NCBI GenBank assembly: GCA_913065025.1
Contig: CAJYAP010000005.1
Location: 1 to 50,297, forward strand
Source of the DNA: an uncultured Gammaproteobacteria bacterium
GTDB lineage: Bacteria; Pseudomonadota; Gammaproteobacteria; Poriferisulfidales; GCA-002705445
Reading direction: 5' to 3'
DNA length: 50,297 nucleotides
The translations under genes were made by a program, and so were the position numbers. Positions 7,169 through 50,297 of this stretch are shown one piece after another (position 1 is the stretch's first letter; the number at the start of each line of letters is the position of its first letter). Under the pieces are notes generated by a model, which saw nothing but the letters and a program-made list of their open reading frames with translations, made no database searches and was not told where the DNA came from.

Positions 7169-7369
7169 CTATTTTTGATAATAATTCTTACACTTAGCAA
7201 CTATAAAAGATATATTGCAAAGTAGGTGTTTAAATCCTTTATATATGCATCATTATCATTATTATATAGGTTTTTTTAAAATCAAATAAAAAATAGATAG
7301 CTGTTTACTTAAAACTATAGAATAATAAATACCTTAAGAATTGAAATTTTAATGCTAGGAGAATTGAAT

Positions 7370-8002
7370 ATGTCTATATCTAAAGAAGAATTAGAAAAAA
7401 TAATGGAAAAAAAATCTGGTATGCGAAGAGAAGCATATGACAGAAGAGCAGCTCAAGAGAATAAAGACGAAGTAAGCGCAAGTGCTTGTGAAAGGTTTAT
7501 GAGCCTTCCTGAGTATAAAAATGCTCAAGTCATAATGTGGTATATAGACTGTAGATCGGAAACAAGAACTAAACCTCATCTCATTAAAGAAGTTGAAAAG
7601 GGTGAAAAAAAAATTATTGTCCCTTATTGCACCGAAGATGAAAACGGAGAAAATAAGCTTGGTCTTTGGCATATGTCTAGTTTAGAAGAAATGGTAGTTG
7701 GTAAATGGGATATTTTAGAACCACCAAAAGAACTATGGGGAAATCCTGAAAAAGAAGTTACTCCACAAGAGCTTGATATGATAATGGTTCCTGGCACAGG
7801 TTTTGATAGAACTGGTGGAAGAATGGGGAATGGTCAAGGCTACTACGACAGAACTATGGAGCAAGTTAGGCCAGAATGTTCATTAGTAGCTCTTTGCTAT
7901 GAATCTCAGTTATTTGATGAAATTCTTGTCGCTCCTCATGACGTTTATATGGATAAAGTAGTTACAGAGTCTGATGTATACGAAGGCAAAGGAAGAGGTT
8001 AA
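7370..8002 (+). CDS. 5-formyltetrahydrofolate cyclo-ligase family protein
   Basis: The family uses ATP to convert N5-formyl-THF to 5,10-methenyl-THF. The family signature VPGTGFDRTGGRMGNGQGYY (140-159, then DR) is intact, and the N-terminal MRREAYDRR resembles the usual substrate/ATP-binding helix. I prefer the ATG at 7370 (210 residues) over one at 7352, because AGGAGA at 7357-7362 is spaced 7 bases before it. It is slightly longer than the usual 180-200 residues. It is the first gene of a + strand block, 3 bases before the ftr homologue and near folD. In many gammaproteobacteria the fau gene follows 6S RNA; here it does not. It may be housekeeping 5-FCL, or a version specialised for this pathway. 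Confidence 0.88.
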   Translation: MSISKEELEKIMEKKSGMRREAYDRRAAQENKDEVSASACERFMSLPEYKNAQVIMWYIDCRSETRTKPHLIKEVEKGEKKIIVPYCTEDENGENKLGLWHMSSLEEMVVGKWDILEPPKELWGNPEKEVTPQELDMIMVPGTGFDRTGGRMGNGQGYYDRTMEQVRPECSLVALCYESQLFDEILVAPHDVYMDKVVTESDVYEGKGRG

Positions 8003-8005
8003 ATT

Positions 8006-8929
8006 ATGACTGCAATTATAGACGACACATATGCTGAAGCTTTTAAAAGTATGTACTCTGAAGTACTTATTACTGCAATTAATAGAAAATGGCTAGATCA
8101 TGCTGTTAATGCTGCTACGGGAAATGCGTCAAGTAGTATTCTATGTGATTGTGAAGCTGGTCTGGATAGATATGTAGGGCCAGGTGGCGACGAAAGTGTT
8201 TCAACTCCTGATGGCAGACCTGGAGCAATAATACAGCTGCACATACCAAAATTTTGGAAAGATCCAAAAAAACTTGAGAAAGCTGCTTTAGTAAGAATCA
8301 GCCAAAATATTCTCACATGTCCTACTGCATCTTGCTTCAATCTTATGGAAGATAGCGAGTCTTATTTTAAACTTGGAAAAAAAGTTGCTTTTTTTGGCAA
8401 TAAATACCAAAAAAGAATAGAAAGGTTCGGAAGAAAAATGTGGTGGATACCTATATTAGGTGGTGAGTTTATCATGGATAGAAGGCTAGGATACTCTGAT
8501 GGTCTTATGGGTGGAAACCTATGGTACTTTGGTAAAAATACAAAATCAGCTTTAGAAGCTGCTGAAAAAGGTGTTGAGGCTATTTTGCCAATACCAGATG
8601 TTATTACTACTTTTCCTGGTGGTATTGCAGGTAGTGGGTCTAAAGCTGGAAGTGACTATGATTTTACAATAGCTAGCACATATGAGAAGTTCTGCCCTTT
8701 ACTTCAAGATAACCCTGATGTTGAAGCTGCTTTGCCTGAAGGAGTAAATTCAGTAATGGAAATTATAATGAATGGTAAAGATATGAGATCTATCATAATT
8801 GCTACTCAAGCAGCAATTGAAGCTTCTAAAGAAACTAAAGATTTACTTATGATTTCTGCAGGAAACTACAATGGTAAACTCGGTAAAAGTTTCATTTACC
8901 TTCACCCTGATAAGCAACCTGAAGCTTAA
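8006..8929 (+). CDS. Formyltransferase Ftr/FhcD homologue (formylmethanofuran:H4MPT formyltransferase family)
   Basis: In archaea the family moves a formyl group between methanofuran and N5 of tetrahydromethanopterin; in bacterial methylotrophs it is subunit D of the formyltransferase/hydrolase complex. The 307-residue protein covers the full family: DDTYAEAF (6-13), CDCEAG (47-52), TPDGRPG (67-73), LTCPTASCFN (103-112), TFPGGIAGSGSKAGSDYDF (202-220), VMEIIMNG (250-257, Glu252 a likely catalytic acid) and ISAGNYNGKLG (283-293). It is therefore unlikely to be a relic. It is 3 bases downstream of the 5-FCL gene and 25 bases before folD. The genes for the hydrolase subunits FhcA, B and C, which normally flank it, are absent from the window. 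The acceptor pterin (THF or H4MPT) cannot be read from sequence. Confidence 0.9.
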   Translation: MTAIIDDTYAEAFKSMYSEVLITAINRKWLDHAVNAATGNASSSILCDCEAGLDRYVGPGGDESVSTPDGRPGAIIQLHIPKFWKDPKKLEKAALVRISQNILTCPTASCFNLMEDSESYFKLGKKVAFFGNKYQKRIERFGRKMWWIPILGGEFIMDRRLGYSDGLMGGNLWYFGKNTKSALEAAEKGVEAILPIPDVITTFPGGIAGSGSKAGSDYDFTIASTYEKFCPLLQDNPDVEAALPEGVNSVMEIIMNGKDMRSIIIATQAAIEASKETKDLLMISAGNYNGKLGKSFIYLHPDKQPEA

Positions 8930-8954
8930 ACTAAAAATAATTTAAAAGATTAAT

Positions 8955-9824
8955 ATGAAATATACAGAAAAAGGAACTTTGATATTAGATGGGAGATTTG
9001 TAGCTCAAGAAATGCAAACTTCTATTAAGAAAAAAATTGACGAATCAGGTGTGGATATTACACTCGCGACCGTTTTAGTAGGCGATGATAAACCAAGTCA
9101 GCTTTATGTAAACAACAAACATAAGCAAGCTACTGCCTCATCTATTAAGTCGTTACATGTAAATCTTCCAGGAGATATTTCTCAATTAGAACTGGAAAAT
9201 AAAATATCAGAGCTTGGAAATGACTCTTCCGTAAATGGTATCCTTATACAAATGCCTTTACCAAAAGGATTGAATGAAGATAGTGTCATTGAGATGATTC
9301 CTACCAATAAAGATGTTGATGGTCTTAAAGAACAAAATCTTGGTAAATTAATTGTTGGAAATGATGTGCTACGACCATGCACACCTCTAGGAGTTATGAA
9401 ATTAATAGAGTACTATAAGCTTGAGACAGTAGGTAAAAAAGCTTTAGTTATAGGTAGATCAAGACTAGTTGGAATGCCTCAAGTTATTATGTTTGGGTCA
9501 AAAGGAGTTGATTGCACTGTCACATTAGCTCATTCTAGAACAAAAGATTTAGATGAATTAATTTCAGAATCCGAAATTGTAGTGCCAGCAATTGGTGTGC
9601 CAGGTATTATAAATGCTAAAAACGTAAAAAAAGATGCTATTTTACTTGATGTTGGTATAAGTAGTGACGAAAAAGGTATTCACGGAGATGTTGATTTTGA
9701 TTCTGTAGATGGAATAGCAAAGGCTGTTACCCCTATGCCCGGAGGTACTGGCCCAATGACAGTTGCAAGCTTGCTTGAAAATACCATGAAAGCTGCTCAA
9801 CTTCAGGGTATAATCTCTTCTTAA
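8955..9824 (+). CDS. folD: Methylene-THF dehydrogenase / methenyl-THF cyclohydrolase
   Basis: Bifunctional enzyme interconverting 5,10-methylene-, 5,10-methenyl- and 10-formyl-THF with NADP. The 289-residue protein shows the YVNNK motif with catalytic Lys55, IQMPLPKGL, DVDGL, the dinucleotide-binding GRSRLVGMPQ and MPGGTGPMTVASLLENT. In alphaproteobacterial serine-cycle clusters this position is held by mtdA and fch; here FolD does both steps. It probably supplies methylene-THF for serine formation. It follows ftr by 25 bases and has only a weak ribosome site. Confidence 0.96.
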   Translation: MKYTEKGTLILDGRFVAQEMQTSIKKKIDESGVDITLATVLVGDDKPSQLYVNNKHKQATASSIKSLHVNLPGDISQLELENKISELGNDSSVNGILIQMPLPKGLNEDSVIEMIPTNKDVDGLKEQNLGKLIVGNDVLRPCTPLGVMKLIEYYKLETVGKKALVIGRSRLVGMPQVIMFGSKGVDCTVTLAHSRTKDLDELISESEIVVPAIGVPGIINAKNVKKDAILLDVGISSDEKGIHGDVDFDSVDGIAKAVTPMPGGTGPMTVASLLENTMKAAQLQGIISS

Positions 9825-9958: not shown

Positions 9959-11197
9959 ATGCCTGGCCAAAAACTATCATTCCCTGGAAGAAATTATTTA
10001 TTTGCTCCTGGACCAACACATATTCCAACAGTAGTACAGAATGCTATGAACGTACCTATGGAGGATCACAGAGCTCCTGATTTCCCAGAGCTTGTAAAAC
10101 CAATTTTAAGAGATTTAAAGAAAGTATTTTTAACAAAAACTGGGACTCCATTTATTTTTCCAGCTACTGGAACAGCAGGATGGGAAGTTGCTTTAGCGAA
10201 TACACTTTCACCAGGCGATAAAATCCTAACTTCAAGATTTGGTCAATTTAGCCACCTTTGGTATGACTTAGCAAAAAGAATTGGGCTAGAAGTGGAGTTA
10301 ATTGATACAAAATGGGGAAATGGTATTGAAATAGAGAAATTTAAAAAAGCTTTAGCAAATGACAAAGATAAGAAAATAAAAGCTGTTGTTGTTTGTCATA
10401 ATGAAACTGCGACTGGAGTCACAAGTGATATTGCAGGATTAAGAAAAGCTATGGACCAAGTTAAACACCCTGCTCTTTTGATGGTTGATGGTGTAAGTTC
10501 TATTGCAAGTGTTGAATTTAGATTTGATAAATGGAAAATAGATATAGCGGTTAGTGGATCTCAAAAAGGGTTTATGCTTCCAGCTGGTTTAGCTATTCTA
10601 TGCTTTAGTAAAAAAGCATTAGCTATGCGAAAAACAGCAAAATGCAAAAGATGTTTCCTTGATATACAAGATCATATAAATACAAATAAAGACGGATTCT
10701 TTCCTTATACTCCACCTGTCAATCTTCTCAGAGGCTTGAGAGTTGCTATTGACCTTTTATTAGAAGAAGGAATGGAAAATGTGTTTGCTCGTCATAAAAG
10801 ATTGGCTAGTGGTGTAAGAGCAGCAATCAGAGCTTGGGGTTTAAAATTAGCAGCCTCATCTCCAAAATGGCAATCGGATACAGTTAGTGCGATATGGTTA
10901 GAACCAGGTTCAAAGAATAACCCAGATGGTAAAAAAGCTATGGAAGTAATTAGCATAGCTTACCATACATACAATATTTCACTCGGCGCTGGACTTACAC
11001 AGGTTGCTGGAAAAGTTTTTAGAATTGGTCACCTTGGTGATAACAACGAAGCAAGAATGATGGCTGCACTTGGTGCTGTTGAAATGGCTATGATTGATGC
11101 TGGAATTAAATTTACACCAGGAAGTGGAACTGGTGCAGCTGCTAAATATTGGACAAGTAATCCGAATAAAGCTTTAAAGAAAAAGAAGAAAAAATAA
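9959..11197 (+). CDS. sgaA: Serine-glyoxylate aminotransferase
   Basis: PLP enzyme converting serine plus glyoxylate to hydroxypyruvate plus glycine, the signature transamination of the serine cycle. The 412-residue class-V aminotransferase begins PGRNYLFAPGPTHIP-like, carries TGTAGWEVALANTL (71-84), MVDGVSSI (175-182) and the Schiff-base Lys203 in SGSQKGFMLPAG. Length is typical. A poly-lysine tail (six Lys) ends the protein. Ribosome site aaagga. It lies 21 bases before mcl. Alanine-glyoxylate aminotransferase is the main alternative, but the neighbours make the serine-cycle role secure. Confidence 0.95.
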   Translation: MPGQKLSFPGRNYLFAPGPTHIPTVVQNAMNVPMEDHRAPDFPELVKPILRDLKKVFLTKTGTPFIFPATGTAGWEVALANTLSPGDKILTSRFGQFSHLWYDLAKRIGLEVELIDTKWGNGIEIEKFKKALANDKDKKIKAVVVCHNETATGVTSDIAGLRKAMDQVKHPALLMVDGVSSIASVEFRFDKWKIDIAVSGSQKGFMLPAGLAILCFSKKALAMRKTAKCKRCFLDIQDHINTNKDGFFPYTPPVNLLRGLRVAIDLLLEEGMENVFARHKRLASGVRAAIRAWGLKLAASSPKWQSDTVSAIWLEPGSKNNPDGKKAMEVISIAYHTYNISLGAGLTQVAGKVFRIGHLGDNNEARMMAALGAVEMAMIDAGIKFTPGSGTGAAAKYWTSNPNKALKKKKKK

Positions 11198-11218
11198 CAA
11201 TATAAAAAGGATAATTAT

Positions 11219-12166
11219 ATGAGTCATAAAATATACGAACAAACTTCTAGAAGAGTGCAAAGAAGTGAGCTGGCTGTGCCTGGATCTAATCCAAAGATGT
11301 TTGAAAAAGCATTAAACAGCGACGTTGATTTTGTCTTTTTAGATTTAGAAGATGCTGTAGCTCCTGATGATAAAGTAACAGCAAGAAAAAATGTCATAGA
11401 AGCTCTTCAAGATTTAGATTGGCAAGGTAATGGCAAGACAATTTCTGTTCGAATTAATAGTATTGATACACACTATATGTATCGTGACGTAGTTGAAGTG
11501 GTAGAGCAAGCCGGTGAACACTTAGATACTATCTTACTTCCTAAAGCTGGTACAGCCTCTGATATCTACATGTTGTCAGCATTACTCAATCAAATTGAAA
11601 CTTCTAAAGGTCTTAAAAAGCGTATTGGTATTGAAATTTTAATTGAAACTACTTTAGGTATGGCGAATGTAATGGATATAGCTAAATCTGGTCGCGATGA
11701 AAGACTGGAAGCAATGCATTTTGGTGTTGCTGACTACGCTGCAAGTTGTAGGGCACGTACAACAGTTATTGGTGGTTTAAATCCAGATTATCCTGGCGAT
11801 CAATGGCATGCTGATTTGTCACAAATGTTAGTAGCATGCAGAGCATACGGTTTAAGAGCAATAGATGGTCCATTTGGGGATTTTAAAGACCCATCAAGTT
11901 ATACTTTAGCTGCAAAAAGAGCTGCTGCTCTTGGGTATGAAGGAAAATGGGCTATTCACCCTTCGCAAATCGAGCTAGCAAACGAAGTATTTACACCTCC
12001 ACCAGCAGAAGTTGATAAAGCAAAAAGAATTTTAATAGCTTTAGATGAAGCTGCAAAAGCAGGTCAAGGGGCCGCATCATTAGATGGTAGATTAATTGAT
12101 GCTGCATCAGCAAAAATGGCAGAAAACATTGTTGAAACTGACAAAGCTATAAATTCAAAAAAGTAA
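11219..12166 (+). CDS. mcl: Malyl-CoA lyase
   Basis: Cleaves L-malyl-CoA to glyoxylate and acetyl-CoA, the last step of the serine cycle. The 315-residue CitE/HpcH-family barrel shows ELAVPGSNPKMFEKA (17-31), FLDLEDAVAPDDK (40-52), the CoA/substrate Arg78 in SVRIN, the Mg-binding Glu143 in IETTLG, FGVADYAAS with the second metal acid, and WAIHPSQIELANEVF. Ribosome site aaaggata. It sits directly before mtkAB, whose product is its substrate, as in the alphaproteobacterial mtk/mcl clusters. Confidence 0.96.
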   Translation: MSHKIYEQTSRRVQRSELAVPGSNPKMFEKALNSDVDFVFLDLEDAVAPDDKVTARKNVIEALQDLDWQGNGKTISVRINSIDTHYMYRDVVEVVEQAGEHLDTILLPKAGTASDIYMLSALLNQIETSKGLKKRIGIEILIETTLGMANVMDIAKSGRDERLEAMHFGVADYAASCRARTTVIGGLNPDYPGDQWHADLSQMLVACRAYGLRAIDGPFGDFKDPSSYTLAAKRAAALGYEGKWAIHPSQIELANEVFTPPPAEVDKAKRILIALDEAAKAGQGAASLDGRLIDAASAKMAENIVETDKAINSKK

Positions 12167-12192
12167 ATTAATAATAAAAAGGGGAATGTATT

Positions 12193-13356
12193 TTGGACAT
12201 ACATGAATATCAGGCAAAAAAAATATTATCATCCTACGGTGTACAAATTTTAGATGGAGAACTTGCACTTAACGCTTCAGAAGCTGTAGCGGCATTTAAC
12301 AAATTAGATTCAGATATATGTGTTGTAAAAGCACAAGTTCATTCTGGTGCTAGAGGTAAAGCTGGCGGGATAGTACTGTGTAAAACTGAAGAAGAAGTTA
12401 AAATTGCATCAAACAAACTTTTTGGTACCCACCTAAAAACTATACAAACTGGTGATGAAGGTAAGATAATTGAGAGACTATATATAGAATCCGGTTGTGA
12501 TATTGATAGAGAGATATACTTAGCTTTTGTAATGGATAGAGCTTCACAAAGAATTGTTATAGTAGCTTCTGCGGAAGGTGGGATGTCTATAGAAGAACTT
12601 GCTATTGAAAAACCTGACTCAATCAAAAAAATAGAAATAGACCCAGTAGTTGGACTTACAGGATTCCAAGCTAGAGAATTAAGCTTTGCCTTAAATCTGC
12701 CTAAAGAAGCTCTTGGGAAAGCCGTAAAATTATTTATGGGTTGCTATAAAGCAATGACTAATTTAGATATGAATATGTTAGAAATAAATCCATTAGTGTT
12801 AACAAAGGACAATGATTTAATAGCATTAGATGCAAAAATTAGTTTTGATGATAATGCTATGTTTAAGCACCCAGATATTGATGCACTAAATGATAATGCT
12901 CAAAAAGATCCAAGAGAGGTTGCAGCAAAAGAACATGATTTAAGTTATGTCGGTTTAGACGGCGATATTGGTTGTATTATAAATGGTGCTGGTTTAGCTA
13001 TGGCCTCCATGGATATGATTAAATATTGCGGGGGAGAGCCTGCAAACTTTTTAGACATTGGTGGCGGAGCTTCACCAGAAAGAGTTGGGAAAGCTTTTGA
13101 ACTTGTTTTAGCTGACAAAAAAGTAAAAGCAATGCTTGTTAATGTTTATGCTGGTATTAATAGATGTGATTGGATAGCTGAAGGATTGGTTCAAGTAATT
13201 CCAAAAGTAAATTTACAAATTCCTTTAATAGTTAGGCTATCTGGAACAAATGTGGAAGAAGGTATTAAGATAGTAAAAGATAGCGGACTTCCAATTATTT
13301 TAGCTGACACTTTAAAAGATGCAGCTCAAAAAGCAGTTGATGCTGCCAAACAATAA
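12193..13356 (+). CDS. mtkA: Malate-CoA ligase (malate thiokinase) beta subunit
   Basis: With MtkB it forms malyl-CoA from malate, CoA and ATP. The 387-residue protein is a SucC-like ATP-grasp subunit with KAQVHSGARGKAGGI (nucleotide fold), MNMLEINPLVLT and INGAGLAMASMDMIK. It starts with TTG at 12193: the MDIHEYQAKKIL that follows is the invariant family N-terminus, and aaaaaggggaa is the ribosome site. Assignment as MtkA rather than succinyl-CoA synthetase rests on neighbours (sgaA, mcl, hprA) and on the partner's MtkB-like features. It is 14 bases before mtkB. Confidence 0.92.
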   Translation: MDIHEYQAKKILSSYGVQILDGELALNASEAVAAFNKLDSDICVVKAQVHSGARGKAGGIVLCKTEEEVKIASNKLFGTHLKTIQTGDEGKIIERLYIESGCDIDREIYLAFVMDRASQRIVIVASAEGGMSIEELAIEKPDSIKKIEIDPVVGLTGFQARELSFALNLPKEALGKAVKLFMGCYKAMTNLDMNMLEINPLVLTKDNDLIALDAKISFDDNAMFKHPDIDALNDNAQKDPREVAAKEHDLSYVGLDGDIGCIINGAGLAMASMDMIKYCGGEPANFLDIGGGASPERVGKAFELVLADKKVKAMLVNVYAGINRCDWIAEGLVQVIPKVNLQIPLIVRLSGTNVEEGIKIVKDSGLPIILADTLKDAAQKAVDAAKQ

Positions 13357-13370
13357 TAAAGGGGTAAATA

Positions 13371-14261
13371 ATGTCAGTTTTATTAAATAAAAATACAAAA
13401 GTTTTAGTTCAAGGAATTACAGGGAGAATCGGTAATTTCCATGCTGAAGAAATGATTGCATATGGCACAAATGTAGTAGCTGGTGTAACACCAGGAAAAG
13501 GTGGTTTAACTCATCTCGGAAAACCTGTTTTTAATACGGTAAAAGAGGCTGTTGAAGAAACTGGAGCAGAAGCAACGATAGTTTTTGTTCCCGCTGCCGC
13601 TGCCGCTGATGGTATTATGGAAGCTGCAGATGCTGGAATTAAATATGCTGTCTCAATTACAGATGGAATACCTGCTCACGACATGATAAGAGTCAAAAGG
13701 TATATGCTTAGATATAAAAAAGATGAAAGAATGATTTTAACAGGACCAAATTGCGCAGGAACTATTACGCCTGGTGAAGCCATGATTGGAATAATGCCTG
13801 GTCATATATATATGCCTGGTGAAGTTGGTGTTATTGGAAGATCTGGAACTCTCGGTTACGAAGCAGCCTCTCAGATGAAGGCGGAAGGAATTGGTATTTC
13901 AACTAGTGTTGGTATCGGGGGCGATCCAATAAACGGTAGCTCGCATAAAGATATTCTAGAGTTATTTAATGAGGATGATAAAACAAAAGCAGTTATGATA
14001 ATCGGTGAAATTGGCGGACCACAAGAAGCAGAAGCCGCAGAATATATTCAAAGAAATATGAAAAAACCAGTTGCAGCATATATTGCCGGGCTAACTGCTC
14101 CAAAAGGAAGAAGAATGGGTCATGCTGGAGCTATTGTTTCAGGTAAAGGTGAAAGTGCAGCAGAGAAAGTTGAACTTCTTAAAGAAGCCGGAATTCATAT
14201 AATTCCTAACCCTTCTGAAATGGGAAGTACAATGAAAGAAGTTATGGATAAACATTTATAA
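13371..14261 (+). CDS. mtkB: Malate-CoA ligase (malate thiokinase) alpha subunit
   Basis: CoA-binding, phosphohistidine subunit of malate-CoA ligase. The 296-residue protein has the Rossmann start VQGITGRIGNFH (13-24), GPNCAGTITPGEAMIGIMPG (125-144), IGRSGTLGYEAASQMK, GGDPINGSS, and KGRRMGHAGAIVSGKG with the phosphorylated His251. The HIYMPG and GTLGYEAASQ segments resemble MtkB more than SucD. It is sandwiched between mtkA and hprA (18 bases), so one transcript probably serves the whole serine-cycle block. Confidence 0.93.
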   Translation: MSVLLNKNTKVLVQGITGRIGNFHAEEMIAYGTNVVAGVTPGKGGLTHLGKPVFNTVKEAVEETGAEATIVFVPAAAAADGIMEAADAGIKYAVSITDGIPAHDMIRVKRYMLRYKKDERMILTGPNCAGTITPGEAMIGIMPGHIYMPGEVGVIGRSGTLGYEAASQMKAEGIGISTSVGIGGDPINGSSHKDILELFNEDDKTKAVMIIGEIGGPQEAEAAEYIQRNMKKPVAAYIAGLTAPKGRRMGHAGAIVSGKGESAAEKVELLKEAGIHIIPNPSEMGSTMKEVMDKHL

Positions 14262-14279
14262 ATTTAAACGGGGAAAGAG

Positions 14280-15251
14280 ATGAGTAAACCTACAGTATTA
14301 GTTACAAGAAAATGGCCTTCTGAAGTAGAAGAAGAATTAAAATCAAAATATGATGTAACACTTAATGAGAAGGACGTGCCTATGAGCATTCCTGAACTTC
14401 AAGCAGCGTTTCAAAATTATGATTGCGTTTGCCCAACTGTTACAGACCCTATTAATGCAGAAGTACTTTCTGTAGAAAATAAAAAAGCTAAAATAATAGC
14501 GAGTTTTGGCGTTGGATTTAACCATATAGATCTTGATGCAGCAAAAAAAGAAAATTTAGTTGTTACAAATACACCTGAAGTTCTTACAGACTGTACAGCA
14601 GATATAGCAATGACTTTGCTGCTAAGTGCCGCAAGAAGGACTAGTGAAGGAGAAAGAGAATTAAGAGCTGGCAAATGGGCTGGATGGAGACCAACGCATC
14701 TAAGAGGTACACAAGTAACAGGCAAAACTTTGGGTTGCATTGGTTTTGGAAGAATAGCTCAAGCTACAGCTGATAGAGCTCATTTTGGATTTGGAATGAA
14801 AATTATATTTTCGGATCCATATATGCCATCAGACGAAGTTATTAAAAAATATGATGCTACACCATGCTCAAGTGTTGAAGAGGTTTTAGAAAAAGCAGAT
14901 TTTGTTTCTATTCACTGCCCAGGCGGAGAAAGTACTTATCATCTAATGAATAAAGAAAGAATTGGTATGATGAAAAAAGGCGCTTATCTAATAAACTCAG
15001 CTAGAGGTGATGTTATTGATAACGACGCTTTAATAGAGGCATTAAAAAATAAAACAATCGCTGGGGCAGGATTAGATGTGTTTGAAGGTGAGCCGAAGTT
15101 AAATCCAGGATTCTTAGATTGCGAAAATGCTGTACTGCTTCCTCATTTAGGTAGTGCCTCAACTGAAACAAGAATAGCAATGGGCATGAGAGTACTTGAA
15201 AATATGGAGGCTTACTATAGTGATAAAGAGCCCGGAGATAGGGTAGCTTAA
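14280..15251 (+). CDS. hprA: Hydroxypyruvate reductase (D-2-hydroxyacid dehydrogenase)
   Basis: Reduces hydroxypyruvate, made by SgaA, to D-glycerate with NAD(P)H. The 323-residue protein has the D-2-hydroxyacid dehydrogenase layout: substrate domain to about 100, Rossmann motif GCIGFGRIAQATADRA, INSARGDVIDNDAL with the catalytic Arg, AGLDVFEGEP with the Glu, and LLPHLGSAS with the catalytic His. Glyoxylate reductase is a close family alternative, and many members do both. Ribosome site gggg/aaagag. It is the last gene before a strong terminator. Glycerate kinase, needed for the next step, is not in the window. Confidence 0.9.
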   Translation: MSKPTVLVTRKWPSEVEEELKSKYDVTLNEKDVPMSIPELQAAFQNYDCVCPTVTDPINAEVLSVENKKAKIIASFGVGFNHIDLDAAKKENLVVTNTPEVLTDCTADIAMTLLLSAARRTSEGERELRAGKWAGWRPTHLRGTQVTGKTLGCIGFGRIAQATADRAHFGFGMKIIFSDPYMPSDEVIKKYDATPCSSVEEVLEKADFVSIHCPGGESTYHLMNKERIGMMKKGAYLINSARGDVIDNDALIEALKNKTIAGAGLDVFEGEPKLNPGFLDCENAVLLPHLGSASTETRIAMGMRVLENMEAYYSDKEPGDRVA

Positions 15252-15995: not shown

Positions 15996-17444
15996 TTATA
16001 AAGTTATATTGTTTGAATTTATTATGATAAGTTTATCATATAATAAATCAGAAAATGAGTATTCTATTCCACCTACAGCTTCCCCTGAATGCTTTATACC
16101 ACCAAATGGCATCCAGTCTACTCTAAATGCAGTTTGTTCATTTATAAATACACTTTTAGCATCAAGATTTTCATAGCATAATATTGCTGTATCAATGTTT
16201 TTTGTGTACACGGATGACTGGAATGCAAACTTATCATGGTTTGCTTTCTGTATAGCTTCATCTATTGTGTTGAAGCTATATAGACATAGAACTGGACCAA
16301 AAATTTCGTGGCTGCTTACTGTAGAGTTTTCTTTTGGATTTTTTAAAACTGTGCATTCATAAGTTGTTTCATTTTTAGCAAACCCACCACATATTAATTC
16401 AGCACCTTCGCTTATTGATTTTTTTATAACTTTATCTATTCTTTTAACTTCAGAAGGTCTAATTAATGGCCCAACATCTGTTGTTATTTTTCTTGGATCT
16501 CCAACTTTTATTTTTAAGATTGCCTTTTTTATAAGTTCTGTGAATTGATCAATCAAATCTTCGTGAATAATAACTTTTTGAATTGATACGCACACTTGCC
16601 CTGCATGATAGAAAGCGCCTCTTAGTATAGACGGTAATATTTTTTGTATGTCAGCATCTTTATCTATTATTACAGAACCAACACCTCCATGTTCCATTGC
16701 GCATTTTGCACCTGGTGGCATCATAGTCTTTAATTTCCATCCAACATCAGAGCTACCGATAAAAGATAGAAAAGATATTCTTGGGTCTTTAACAAATTTT
16801 TGTGTAATGATGTGATTTTTAATATTGATCATCTGACAAAATTCTTTTGGTAACCCTGATTCTAATAATAACTTTATAAACTCATAACACGAAACTGGAG
16901 TTTCTAATGAAGGCTTAATAATAATTGGACATCCAGCTGCTATAGCTGGTCCTATCTGATGAATAACTAAATTCAATGGATGGTTAAACGCACTGATAGC
17001 TAGTACTGGCCCGACTGGAAATTTTCTTGTAAATGCTATTTTATTAACTGAAGCTTTATTAATATTCATAGGTATTTCAGTTCCATGAGATTTCTTTAAA
17101 GCTTCTGCACACAGTTCTAAACCGTTTACTGCTCTTTCAACTTCAATTTTTGAATCTTTTAAGGGCTTACCGCCCTCAAGTGCAATTATATTAGTAAATT
17201 TTCTTGAATTTTTTAAAAGCTTATTTCTACAGTTTTTTAAAATCTCTAATCTTTTGATCTTACTTAAATACTTTTTATTATTTTTAAAAGCGTTTGATGA
17301 AACATCAAGAATTTGATCTACTTCTTTTTTAGAAATACATTCTACCTTCCCTATTTTTTTTAAATCCCATGGCGAGTATAAATCAACATATGTTGGGTCT
17401 TTTATTTTTATAGGCGTGATATTTTTGATATTTCTAACCGTCAT
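15996..17444 (-). CDS. NAD(P)-dependent aldehyde dehydrogenase
   Basis: Oxidises an unknown aldehyde to the acid. The 482-residue protein is a full-length ALDH-superfamily member: SAFNHPLNLVIHQIGPA (cofactor and active-site region), KPSLETPVS, FIGSSDVGW, the general base Glu in AMEHGGVGSV, catalytic Cys in GQVCVSIQKV, and EIFGPVLCLYSF. EHGG replaces the common ELGG. The start overlaps the end of the upstream acetolactate-synthase-like gene by 11 bases, so the two are tightly coupled and probably act in one pathway. The substrate cannot be inferred from sequence; succinate-semialdehyde- and glyceraldehyde-type enzymes are close relatives. Confidence 0.9.
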   Translation of the reverse strand: MTVRNIKNITPIKIKDPTYVDLYSPWDLKKIGKVECISKKEVDQILDVSSNAFKNNKKYLSKIKRLEILKNCRNKLLKNSRKFTNIIALEGGKPLKDSKIEVERAVNGLELCAEALKKSHGTEIPMNINKASVNKIAFTRKFPVGPVLAISAFNHPLNLVIHQIGPAIAAGCPIIIKPSLETPVSCYEFIKLLLESGLPKEFCQMINIKNHIITQKFVKDPRISFLSFIGSSDVGWKLKTMMPPGAKCAMEHGGVGSVIIDKDADIQKILPSILRGAFYHAGQVCVSIQKVIIHEDLIDQFTELIKKAILKIKVGDPRKITTDVGPLIRPSEVKRIDKVIKKSISEGAELICGGFAKNETTYECTVLKNPKENSTVSSHEIFGPVLCLYSFNTIDEAIQKANHDKFAFQSSVYTKNIDTAILCYENLDAKSVFINEQTAFRVDWMPFGGIKHSGEAVGGIEYSFSDLLYDKLIIINSNNITL

Positions 17445-19098
17445 ATGTTTTCTCTAGTGAGCCTAAAAAATCAGTCAATTTTTCATTTTCTGAATAATCT
17501 ATTGGTATTACGAATAAAGTTGGGCCTTTAAGACCTTCGGTCTCATTTAGCCTTTTTGTTATTTTTGAGCTGTCATTCTCGTATATGTAATTCCAATTAA
17601 ATGATTGAGCTAATTGCTCCCATTGAGGATTATCAAAATCAAGGTCTGTTGATTTTCCAAATTCTGCTTGCTGCTTCCATTTTATTAAACCGTAAGATTT
17701 ATCCTCCCAAATTATTGCCACAAAATCAGACCTCATTCTCTTTGCTGTTTCCATCTCCTGAAGATTCATTAAAAAACCAGCATCACCACATATAGCGAAT
17801 ATTTTTTTCTTATTATTTGATAGTGACGCTGCTATTGCCGCTGGTAATGCATATCCCATTGAGCAAAATCCATTTGGTATTATGCAAGTGTTTGGTTCGT
17901 AACATGGGTAGTGTCTTGCAATCCACATTTTGTGTGCCCCAACATCAGATATTAATATATCGTTCTTACTTAAAAAATTTCTCAAATCATAAAGAAACTT
18001 CTGGGGTTTTATCAGGCCTTTTTGCTTATCATCTTTATACTTTTCATTATCAACTTTCAGCTCATTTCTTAATTTTTTTACATTTTGTAAAGCGTATGGC
18101 TTAATTCCTTCTCTATCTATTATTTTATTTAATACAGATAAGGAATGGGCTAGATCTCCAACCACTTCTACCTGAGGTATATAATGTTCGTCAATTTCAG
18201 CGGCTTCAAAATCTATATGTATAATTTTTGACTTTGAATTTCTGTTCCAAAGTTTAGGATGGTATTCAACCATGTCGTATCCAAGTGTAATAACTAAATC
18301 AGAATCTTTAATTGCTATATCTCCAAAATCAATAGCTCCCAAACCTACTGTTGAAAGATAATATTCAGAGTTGCAGTCTACTGCTCCTTTACCCATAAAT
18401 GTTGTAACAACAGGAATATTGGTCCTTTCACAAAAGTCTCTGAGTTGACGTGATGATCTTTTCCTTATTGCTCCATTTCCAGCAATAAGTATTGGTGACT
18501 TTGCCTCAATCATTAGTTTGAAGGCTTTATATATAATATCATCTTCAGCTATTGATCTTCTGTAGGGAAAGGATTTCAGTGGTTTGGCGTTCACATCTAA
18601 CTTTGATATATCTTCTGGTAACTCTATATGAACAGCACCTGGTTTTTCTAACGTTGCGAGTCTTACAGCTTTTCTTACAATCTCGGGAATTGTTTTTGGA
18701 TTTCTAATAGATGTTGTCCACTTAGTAACAGACTTAAACATATTGCACACATCCAATATTTGATGTGACTCCTTATGAAGTCTATCTGATGAACCTTGTC
18801 CTGTAATGACAAGTATCGGGGAATGGTCCATATTTGCATCAGCTACGCCTGTAAGTAAATTAGTCGCTCCCGGCCCGAGTGTGCTTAAACAGCAAGAAAG
18901 TTTACCAGTTAACTTTCCATATGATTCTGCCATAAAAGCTGCTCCCTGCTCATGCCTTGTCAAAATAAATTTTATCTTCTTAGACTCGTGAAGAGACATT
19001 AAAAAATCAGCATTTTCCTCTCCAGGAACGCCAAAAATATACTCAATACCTTCATTTTCAAGGCACTTTACAAATAAATCAGAAGTCTTCATATTCAT
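17434..19098 (-). CDS. TPP-dependent acetolactate-synthase-like enzyme
   Basis: The 554-residue protein has the three-domain TPP fold: N-terminal Pyr domain with the cofactor-activating Glu in RHEQGAAFMAESYG, a central domain (about 195-330), and the C-terminal PP domain with GDAGFLMNLQEMETA, the diphosphate/Mg motif. Closest in character to catabolic acetolactate synthase (AlsS/IlvB large subunit). No regulatory small subunit (IlvN) follows; the next gene is an overlapping aldehyde dehydrogenase. The Glu excludes glyoxylate carboligase, which lacks it, even though glyoxylate is prominent in the neighbouring pathway. Exact substrates remain open. Confidence 0.82.
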   Translation of the reverse strand: MNMKTSDLFVKCLENEGIEYIFGVPGEENADFLMSLHESKKIKFILTRHEQGAAFMAESYGKLTGKLSCCLSTLGPGATNLLTGVADANMDHSPILVITGQGSSDRLHKESHQILDVCNMFKSVTKWTTSIRNPKTIPEIVRKAVRLATLEKPGAVHIELPEDISKLDVNAKPLKSFPYRRSIAEDDIIYKAFKLMIEAKSPILIAGNGAIRKRSSRQLRDFCERTNIPVVTTFMGKGAVDCNSEYYLSTVGLGAIDFGDIAIKDSDLVITLGYDMVEYHPKLWNRNSKSKIIHIDFEAAEIDEHYIPQVEVVGDLAHSLSVLNKIIDREGIKPYALQNVKKLRNELKVDNEKYKDDKQKGLIKPQKFLYDLRNFLSKNDILISDVGAHKMWIARHYPCYEPNTCIIPNGFCSMGYALPAAIAASLSNNKKKIFAICGDAGFLMNLQEMETAKRMRSDFVAIIWEDKSYGLIKWKQQAEFGKSTDLDFDNPQWEQLAQSFNWNYIYENDSSKITKRLNETEGLKGPTLFVIPIDYSENEKLTDFLGSLEKTYDG

Positions 19099-48962: not shown

Positions 48963-49196
48963 ATGAATAATGATCACATAATATCCTCACTAAATAAAGA
49001 CTTAGACGAGCTCGAAGCTAAAATAGAGGAATTGTCCAACAAATATCTAGACCTTAAAAAAGAAAATCAGCTACTAAAAGAGAGACAAGAAATAGAAGTC
49101 TCTGAAAAATTTAAAATTAAAGAAAAGAATCAAAAAGTTCAAAATAAAGTAGAAGGTATAATTAATAGATTAAGGTCCCTAGAGTATACTCAATAA
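48963..49196 (+). CDS. zapB: ZapB-like coiled-coil protein (TIGR02449 type)
   Basis: A 77-residue, almost entirely coiled-coil protein (leucine heptads over about 8-72) placed directly before zapA. This fits the small family found upstream of zapA in gammaproteobacteria and likened to ZapB, a Z-ring-associated factor. The role in division is inferred from position and shape only. The stop overlaps zapA's ATG (TAATG). The leaderless-type promoter is described separately. Confidence 0.75.
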   Translation: MNNDHIISSLNKDLDELEAKIEELSNKYLDLKKENQLLKERQEIEVSEKFKIKEKNQKVQNKVEGIINRLRSLEYTQ

Positions 49197-49498
49197 TGAA
49201 TGATCAAGATAAAAAAATTCCGGTTACTGTTAAAATTTTAAATCAAAATTACGATATCTTTTGTAATGAAAATGAAAAAGAAAACTTATTTAACTCAGCT
49301 GAGCTACTGAATGACAAAATGATGAAAACAAAAGCTGAAGGAAAAACCATAGGTTTAGATAGAATAGCAGTAATTTCAGCATTAAATTTTGCAAATGACT
49401 CACTAGACCATAAAAACATTACAAACACATTGAGTTCTACTATAAAACAAAAAATTCATAGTCTTAATGAGAAATTAGACTCAATTCTACAAAATTAA
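49196..49498 (+). CDS. zapA: Cell division protein ZapA
   Basis: Bundles FtsZ filaments at midcell. The 100-residue protein has the family start (PVTVKILNQNYDIFCNENE), followed by the dimerisation helices LFNSAELLNDKMMKTKAEGKT in two parts and IAVISALNFANDSL. Normal size. Next to it, 55 bases after the stop, is the 6S RNA, the classical zapA-ssrS order. Confidence 0.92.
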   Translation: MNDQDKKIPVTVKILNQNYDIFCNENEKENLFNSAELLNDKMMKTKAEGKTIGLDRIAVISALNFANDSLDHKNITNTLSSTIKQKIHSLNEKLDSILQN

Positions 49499-49553
49499 TA
49501 CTTAAGTTTTAATCAGTAGTCAAATTATTTTATATTTGATATATTTGATTCAT

Positions 49554-49723
49554 AACTGATGTATTCGATATTATAGTTATGTCTTTGTTCCTAATTTTAA
49601 AATAGGGATTAAGTAACTTATAGCAGGTGTGCAAACCTAAATTTTAGGTAGCCTAATGTATAAAACTTAAGCCCACCTGAACTCAGCGGTTCAAGGAAAA
49701 TTAATAATAACGGTACATCGGTT
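49554..49723 (+). ncRNA. ssrS: 6S RNA
   Basis: Binds the sigma-70 RNA polymerase holoenzyme and down-regulates promoters in stationary phase. I recognise it by structure and place. CTGATGTATT (49556-49565) pairs over 10 positions, counting G-U, with GGTACATCGG (49712-49721), closing a molecule of about 170 nt. CAGGTG (49624-49629) pairs with CACCTG (49674-49679), and GAAC/GGTTC forms the conserved 3'-side hairpin, as in the enteric RNA. It follows zapA as in other gammaproteobacteria. Ends are estimates, and a U-rich stretch (gtttctttct) follows the closing stem. Confidence 0.85.
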
Positions 49724-49734
49724 TCTTTCTATAA

Positions 49735-50138
49735 AATTATTATAAATAAATTTTAATATTCATAAAAAAAATAAATAATGTGAAAAAACTAAATAATTTA
49801 ACAAAATATTATAAATAACTAAAAAAAATCAAAAAAAGTTAAAAATACATTAAATAACTAAAAAAATATCAGAAAAAACATAATAAAAGACTAAAAAAAT
49901 ATTTTTTTAACAAAAAATAAGAAAAAAGAGTAATAATTACTTAAAATAAAAAAAAATTAAAGAAAAAATGTCGAAAATTGAAAGAAAAAAACATTTTTTT
50001 TTATTTTGATGCGAATTACGTTAAAAAAAAGCTAAAAAATAAAAAAAACAAATAAATGAATTTTTTATTTAAAAAAAAAGATTGTATTTCACTTTAATAT
50101 CATTAAACTTTTATTTGATAACCAACTTTAAGTGTTTT
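49735..50138. repeat. Extremely AT-rich, A-tract spacer
   Basis: About 400 bases without a gene. In 49741-50100 I count about 41 G or C in 360 bases, that is about 11% GC. Adenine greatly exceeds thymine on the + strand, in runs of 5-9 A. TAAATAACTAAAAAAA occurs twice (49812-49827 and 49851-49866), 39 bases apart, with looser copies of ACTAAAAAA around. I see no open frame, RNA or clear terminator. It probably holds the promoter of the histone-like gene and may be bent DNA. Confidence 0.8.
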
Positions 50139-50149
50139 GGAGGATTTAA

Positions 50150-50297
50150 ATGGCCATTAAACGTAAGAAGAAAAAGGTAGTAAGAAAAACAGCTGCTAAG
50201 AAAAAAGTTGTACGAAAAGCAGCTAAAAAGAAAGTAACTAAACGTAAAGTTGCTAAAAAGAAAGTAGCTAAGCGTAAAGTTAAAAAGAAAGTTAAGA
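50150..50297 (+). CDS. Histone H1-like lysine-rich DNA-binding protein (3' end beyond window)
   Basis: The first 49 codons read MAIKRKKKKVVRKTAAKKK and then repeat patterns such as KKKV(V/T/A)(R/K)(K/R)K and AAKKK with no acidic residues. This resembles the C-terminal-type histone H1 homologues of bacteria (HctB/AlgP-like). GGAGGA at 50139-50144, five bases before the ATG, is the best Shine-Dalgarno in the window and suggests strong translation. The gene is cut by the window end. It probably compacts DNA and could also bind RNA; the full length is unknown. Confidence 0.82.
   Translation, partial: MAIKRKKKKVVRKTAAKKKVVRKAAKKKVTKRKVAKKKVAKRKVKKKVK

Follow-up and report, generated by a model that had tools for sequence, protein, structure and literature searches.

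A divergent Ftr paralogue encoded between 5-formyl-THF cyclo-ligase and FolD, and a candidate relay of formyl groups into the folate pool

Gene content of the locus

The window, that is, the whole stretch of 50,297 nucleotides analysed here, is contig C5 of a 983-kb assembly that is 83% complete. Three co-directional ORFs on its forward strand encode a 5-formyl-THF cyclo-ligase (5-FCL), a divergent paralogue of Ftr, called Ftr2 here, and FolD (Table 1). The gap is 3 nt between 5-FCL and Ftr2 and 25 nt between Ftr2 and folD. An earlier note on this DNA had described this order, these gaps and a full-length Ftr, and all are borne out by the ORFs and by the Pfam matches, which cover both Ftr lobes. 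The start of 5-FCL is more likely to be at 7370, as many relatives align from residue 7 onward. The trio also heads a serine-cycle block, as had been proposed: the genes downstream (9959-15251) are a serine-cycle set. Malate-CoA ligase, malyl-CoA lyase, the serine-glyoxylate-type aminotransferase and hydroxypyruvate reductase are encoded in the window, and GlyA in the relative G004. Convergent to the serine-cycle operon, on the reverse strand (15996-19098), are genes for an aldehyde dehydrogenase and an acetolactate-synthase-like TPP enzyme (PRK08322, 695/509 bits); the latter is also found near the corresponding locus in G004.

Table 1. Features of the window discussed in the text (positions within the window).
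Feature	Position	Strand	Evidence
5-FCL (5-formyl-THF cyclo-ligase)	7352..8002 (likely start 7370)	+	PF01812 5-FTHF_cyc-lig, 131 bits; TIGR02727 over cut-off
Ftr2, divergent Ftr paralogue	8006..8929	+	PF01913 FTR, 144 bits; PF02741 FTR_C, 160 bits
FolD, methylene-THF dehydrogenase/cyclohydrolase	8955..9824	+	THF_DHG_CYH, 183 bits; PF00763 and PF02882
Serine-glyoxylate-type aminotransferase, serine cycle	9959..11197	+	PF00266; nearest NCBIfam BhcA, below cut-off
Malyl-CoA/citramalyl-CoA lyase family, serine cycle	11219..12166	+	PF03328
Malate-CoA ligase beta (mtkA)	12193..13356	+	NF010647, 614.5/604 bits (score/cut-off)
Malate/succinate-CoA ligase alpha (mtkB)	13371..14261	+	PF02629 and PF00549; NF004230 over cut-off
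Hydroxypyruvate/glyoxylate reductase, serine cycle	14280..15251	+	PF02826 and PF00389
6S RNA, after zapA (49196-49498)	49550..49728	+	RF00013, 72.6 bits

The 5-FCL belongs to its family both by score (TIGR02727, 127.7/84.9 bits) and by the ATP-site motif GxGxGYYD, which is present as GNGQGYYDR when aligned to 1ydm, 1sou and 3hxt. Family and motifs are common to this protein and to the repair 5-FCL of E. coli (fau/ygfA), and 5-FCL is known as a housekeeping metabolite-repair enzyme too. In E. coli, the gene order is zapA-ssrS-fau, with the 5-FCL gene after that for 6S RNA. By contrast, the Ftr2-linked 5-FCL is in the ftr2 operon and not at the zapA-6S locus, is strongly conserved, and is proposed below to act on a main path. 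In the window, zapA and 6S RNA precede a short Lys-rich ORF truncated by the window end (50297), and there is no 5-FCL ORF between the 6S RNA and that end (49728-50297). The 5-FCL of the trio is the only one found in the window genome, and of the 45 genomes that gave a match, 44 have the Ftr2-type 5-FCL as their only copy. Planctomycete 5-FCLs that are not linked to Ftr2 are 45-53% identical to that of the window, versus 28% for E. coli fau, and by this measure they still belong to the Ftr2 type.

A separate clade of Ftr

Ftr2 shares both Pfam lobes, the fold and the core residues of archaeal Ftr and bacterial FhcD. Its AlphaFold model (pLDDT 87) superimposes on 1ftr, 1m5h and 1m5s with TM-scores of 0.87-0.90 (0.87/0.90 for 1ftr), and the residues that are invariant across Ftr are retained in the alignment, including E252. 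This residue corresponds to M. kandleri E245, the proposed catalytic Glu. Ftr2 of the window passes the NCBIfam models PRK02114 (318/297 bits) and, only just, TIGR03119 (297.8/292.6 bits), where the canonical FhcD of the same genome scores 411 bits.

Nevertheless, Ftr2 differs from Ftr and FhcD in several respects. Identity to them is 36-41%, and to the FhcD of its own genome 37-39%. Two specific inserts are found near positions 58-66 and 79-82, and S15, N101, R140, R159, M168 and W173 are invariant in Ftr2 only. At position 159, Ftr2 has Arg where the others have E/D, and at position 101 it has Asn instead of Cys; of these, the Arg would be well suited to the glutamate tail of folate. In a tree that sets this protein against FhcD, a check put forward in the earlier note, the 41 Ftr2 rows form one clade (support 100/100, branch length 1.31) outside both FhcD and archaeal Ftr, and the latter two (75 FhcD plus archaeal Ftr) group together on the other side. 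Gammaproteobacterial Ftr2 is nested among the planctomycete and NC10 sequences, which suggests transfer of ftr2 between phyla. Furthermore, Ftr2 is located with 5-FCL and folD rather than with fhcABC. On sequence evidence, Ftr2 is a separate family that was previously not set apart from Ftr. The idea that the Ftr of the window is the sole Ftr of its genome, and hence its FhcD, was rejected, as a second fhcD lies on contig C16.

Distribution and linkage

Within the order, which was covered by 20 genomes from three families, 16 genomes have both Ftr2 and FhcD, two have one of them, and two incomplete genomes have neither. The trio is kept in every genome of the order whose locus was read, a comparison also proposed earlier. 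Identity between families is 72-79% for Ftr2 and 67-78% for 5-FCL but lower for FhcD (about 49-56%) and FolD (47-52%), which makes Ftr2 and 5-FCL the best-conserved two of the compared set. In a scan of species genomes, Ftr2 was found in Gammaproteobacteria, Planctomycetota and an NC10 genome. The gammaproteobacterial carriers are marine and sponge-associated, with records named Ca. Porisulfidus, 'uncultured Thiothrix' and Methylococcaceae UBA2778, and further carriers are a Methylomirabilis MAG and many Planctomycetota, including Zavarzinella formosa, Gemmata and Limnoglobus roseus. A second, FhcD-type FTR_C match is present in all 46 Ftr2 genomes checked, although one is only a fragment. Judged by these matches, Ftr2 is an addition to FhcD and not a substitute for it.

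The neighbors of Ftr2 are also conserved. 5-FCL is directly upstream in 34 of the 34 gammaproteobacterial loci with a visible upstream region (gap of 2-8 nt), in the NC10 locus (gap of 28 nt) and in 17 of 43 planctomycete loci. As the trio is kept wherever its locus was read in the order and 5-FCL is paired with Ftr2 in other phyla too, this arrangement is not due to chance. In Gammaproteobacteria, FolD follows Ftr2 in 27 loci, and the serine-glyoxylate-type aminotransferase is linked to most Ftr2 loci. In clusters that lack FolD (for instance, L076), an mtdA-like gene, assigned by sequence resemblance with no NCBIfam model over its cut-off, closes the same serine-cycle block, and metF precedes Ftr2 in one planctomycete. 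All of these partners (5-FCL, FolD, the mtdA-like protein and MetF) use folate.

Some individual loci show additional features. In Methylococcaceae UBA2778, Fae-like coding similarity lies just upstream of 5-FCL-Ftr2 (L089:8600-9271); this genome has three Ftr genes and a formate-THF ligase, and is among the few such Ftr2 genomes. In a gammaproteobacterial MAG chromosome (L070, CP070821.1), mch, mtdB and their neighbors are within 10 kb of 5-FCL-Ftr2-FolD, and the canonical fhcD match is only a fragment.

The H4MPT pathway in the same genomes

The second Ftr gene of the window genome is on contig C16, in a fwdD-fwdB-fwdA-ftr-fwdC cluster adjoined by genes for a ferredoxin and a ferredoxin reductase-like protein, and by its sequence it is the canonical FhcD. 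Contig C1 carries fae and mch, which are present in 19 and 18, respectively, of the 20 genomes of the order. In the relative G004, a single cluster holds mtdB, mch and fae along with probable genes for cofactor biosynthesis. With the mtdB-type gene taken from that cluster, the set for formaldehyde oxidation on H4MPT (fae, mtdB, mch, fhcABCD) is complete, so 5-FCL need not replace Mch. In the earlier note, a complete fhc-mch-mtdB-fae set, an Ftr inside FhcD and a normal ftfL had been named together as arguing against a relay into folate; the set is indeed present, but the Ftr falls outside FhcD and ftfL is missing.

In the window's family, the alignment of FwdB with tungsten FwdB spans the whole protein, and both the FeS and the SVCHGP motifs are retained. 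In consequence, the C1 unit from FhcD probably continues to CO2 without free formate in this family. A review places the formate of such complexes in an internal cavity, where it is trapped (PMC11656701). A coupling of Ftr2 to this CO2-forming, dehydrogenase-type Fwd was considered as well. It is true for the window's family, for Ca. Porisulfidus and for several others, but it is not a rule: other Ftr2 genomes encode hydrolase-type FhcB alone, and the dehydrogenase type also turns up in some genomes with FhcD only.

On contig C16, the FwdD-like gene is at L023:14822-15214 and FwdB, with CxxCxxxC and SVCHGP, at L023:15245-16615. In a survey of H4MPT genes, fwdD is stated not to be present in Proteobacteria (PMC5020050). 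The FwdDBA-ftr-C type is also found in several other Gammaproteobacteria, in some of them beside a hydrolase-type fhc cluster (G026, G031, G183 and G197).

Entry of C1 units into folate

The earlier note had described formate-THF ligase as absent from the window, and this holds for the searchable window genome and for the order: no match over the cut-off was found in 12 genomes of the family and eight further genomes of the order. Thus, the gene on which FtfL-dependent C1 assimilation relies is missing from this set. Among about 68 distinct Ftr2 genomes, four have the ligase. In a sample of the class (369 Gammaproteobacteria, 50 of them with an Ftr), it is present in 31 of 39 FhcD-only genomes versus 2 of 11 Ftr2 genomes (Fisher p=0.00036). 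Collapsed to families, with a second family of the order added to the sample, the ratio is 16/23 versus 1/6 (p=0.056). This association rests on Gammaproteobacteria, as planctomycetes are without an FhcD-only comparison set.

Other entries are scarce as well. With the GCV_T profile, the 20 genomes of the order gave only weak, probably YgfZ-like matches and no other GcvT-type protein; hence, neither glycine cleavage nor GcvT-family folate-linked demethylases are evident in the order. The readable 93% of G004 has glyA and metH, and no gcvP/H/T, serA/B/C, metF or formate-THF ligase was found in it; these absences are provisional, since purH and purD were likewise not seen there and seem to lie in the other 76 kb.

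A candidate relay from the furan carrier to folate

We consider it probable that Ftr2, 5-FCL and FolD pass C1 units from formyl-MFR to methylene-THF and so replace formate-THF ligase. Formaldehyde would be oxidized on H4MPT by Fae, MtdB, Mch and FhcD to formyl-MFR, as usual, and formyl-MFR would then be a branch point, from which Fwd/Fhc leads to CO2 or formate and Ftr2 leads to folate. Ftr2 would transfer formyl from formyl-methanofuran (or formyl-methylofuran) to N5 of THF; 5-FCL, with ATP, would cyclize the resulting 5-formyl-THF to 5,10-methenyl-THF; and FolD, or MtdA in some relatives, would reduce this to methylene-THF, from which serine hydroxymethyltransferase (GlyA) would supply serine and the serine cycle. 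As 5-FCL acts on N5-formyl-THF, an N5-formyltransferase ahead of it is the simplest reading. From the observed gene content, linkage, phylogeny and distribution we infer the donor, the acceptor, the N5 position and the direction.

Like the route through FtfL/Fhs and Fch/FolD in serine-cycle methylotrophs, the relay would bring oxidized C1 units to methylene-THF at a cost of one ATP each. Unlike that route, in genomes where FtfL is mostly absent, it would use a carrier-bound formyl group, transferred to N5 and then taken up by 5-FCL, with neither free formate nor 10-formyl-THF as an intermediate. Genomes with hydrolase-type Fhc would make free formate, and formate-THF ligase is mostly missing from them, so the relay may be used there too. 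Methylofuran is reportedly proposed as a bound group of the Fhc complex in M. extorquens; if so, Ftr2 would need access to a bound cofactor. Transfer of a formyl group at N5 of THF is not without precedent: glutamate formiminotransferase has a moonlighting activity on N5-formyl-THF (PMC3223725), although this enzyme belongs to an unrelated family, consumes 5-formyl-THF and tends to occur instead of 5-FCL.

The earlier interpretation is therefore upheld in part: a relay that bypasses formate-THF ligase is backed by the phylogeny, the linkage across phyla, the negative association with the ligase and the fact that no other C1 entry into folate was detected, while the role of 5-FCL as a stand-in for Mch is not. 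Points against the relay include the four Ftr2 genomes with the ligase, the family-level p value, the enzyme-free condensation of formaldehyde with THF, the possible need for access to a bound furan cofactor, and the housekeeping role of 5-FCL, of which this is the sole copy. A literature search, with most subscription journals outside its reach, found no paper describing such a link between Ftr2 and folate, and the text covered of the survey of H4MPT genes by Chistoserdova 2016 (PMC5020050) does not mention a second Ftr clade.

Alternative explanations

Ftr2 could instead be a mere isoenzyme of FhcD, with formyl-MFR and H4MPT as its substrates, that lies next to 5-FCL and folD for historical reasons. 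The retained fold, most of the invariant residues and the narrow pass of the fhcD equivalog cut-off would agree with this. Nevertheless, we regard it as unlikely, given a separate, long-branch clade that is always additional to FhcD and better conserved than it, the linkage to 5-FCL in three phyla, and the negative association with formate-THF ligase.

Ftr reactions are reversible, and SHMT flux is high in the serine cycle. Ftr2 might thus work in reverse, draining 5-formyl-THF, a harmful by-product of SHMT that needs recycling (PMC9426524), and passing its formyl group to MFR for oxidation. This appears improbable: such disposal would be redundant with 5-FCL and compete with it for 5-formyl-THF, and it would leave no source of folate C1 units where ftfL and glycine cleavage are missing. 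Furthermore, where a glutamate formiminotransferase disposes of 5-formyl-THF, this enzyme tends to take the place of 5-FCL (PMC3223725), whereas 5-FCL is retained, usually next to Ftr2, in every Ftr2 genome checked.

Folate could also be charged by non-enzymatic condensation of formaldehyde with THF, with Ftr2 and 5-FCL only topping up or balancing the 5-formyl pool. One labelling study of methanol-grown M. extorquens supports this condensation and assigns most of the flux to it, but could not eliminate the H4F module (PMC539335). As the condensation leaves the conserved linkage, the Ftr2 clade and the loss of formate-THF ligase unexplained, we give this explanation very little weight. Finally, the organism does have an H4MPT pathway, as would fit the earlier note's alternative that 5-FCL and Ftr both act on H4MPT, with 5-FCL in place of Mch. 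This alternative is refuted for practical purposes, as mch is found in 18 of the 20 genomes, including that of the window, fae in 19, and the THF-specific folD closes the cluster.

Implications

The links described between the methanofuran/H4MPT pool and the folate C1 pool of methylotrophs are, to our knowledge, limited to free formate (by FtfL) and free formaldehyde. If the relay from Ftr2 to FolD operates as proposed, direct transfer of formyl would add a third connection between these pools and a new route from one-carbon compounds to biomass, with a new substrate for the old Ftr family and 5-FCL as a main-path rather than a repair enzyme. It would also explain how folate is charged without formate-THF ligase in many H4MPT-bearing Gammaproteobacteria and Planctomycetota, a gap currently masked by the 'ftr' label in genome annotations, and it may be of interest for engineering C1 assimilation without free formate.

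The relay could even start from CO2, with formyl-MFR dehydrogenase reducing CO2 and Ftr2, 5-FCL, FolD and GlyA feeding the serine cycle. This is conceivable because the active site of Fwd looks intact (SVCHGP in FwdB) and because FwdD and a neighboring ferredoxin are present, but we consider it a long shot; if true, it would be a new entry for CO2 fixation in a probable sulfur oxidizer. Simple, weak motif searches of G004 gave no PQQ methanol dehydrogenase or RuBisCO. The same genome has probable AprBA-like genes (adenylylsulfate reductase; C4:182441-184791, L286), which suggest the lifestyle of a sulfur oxidizer.
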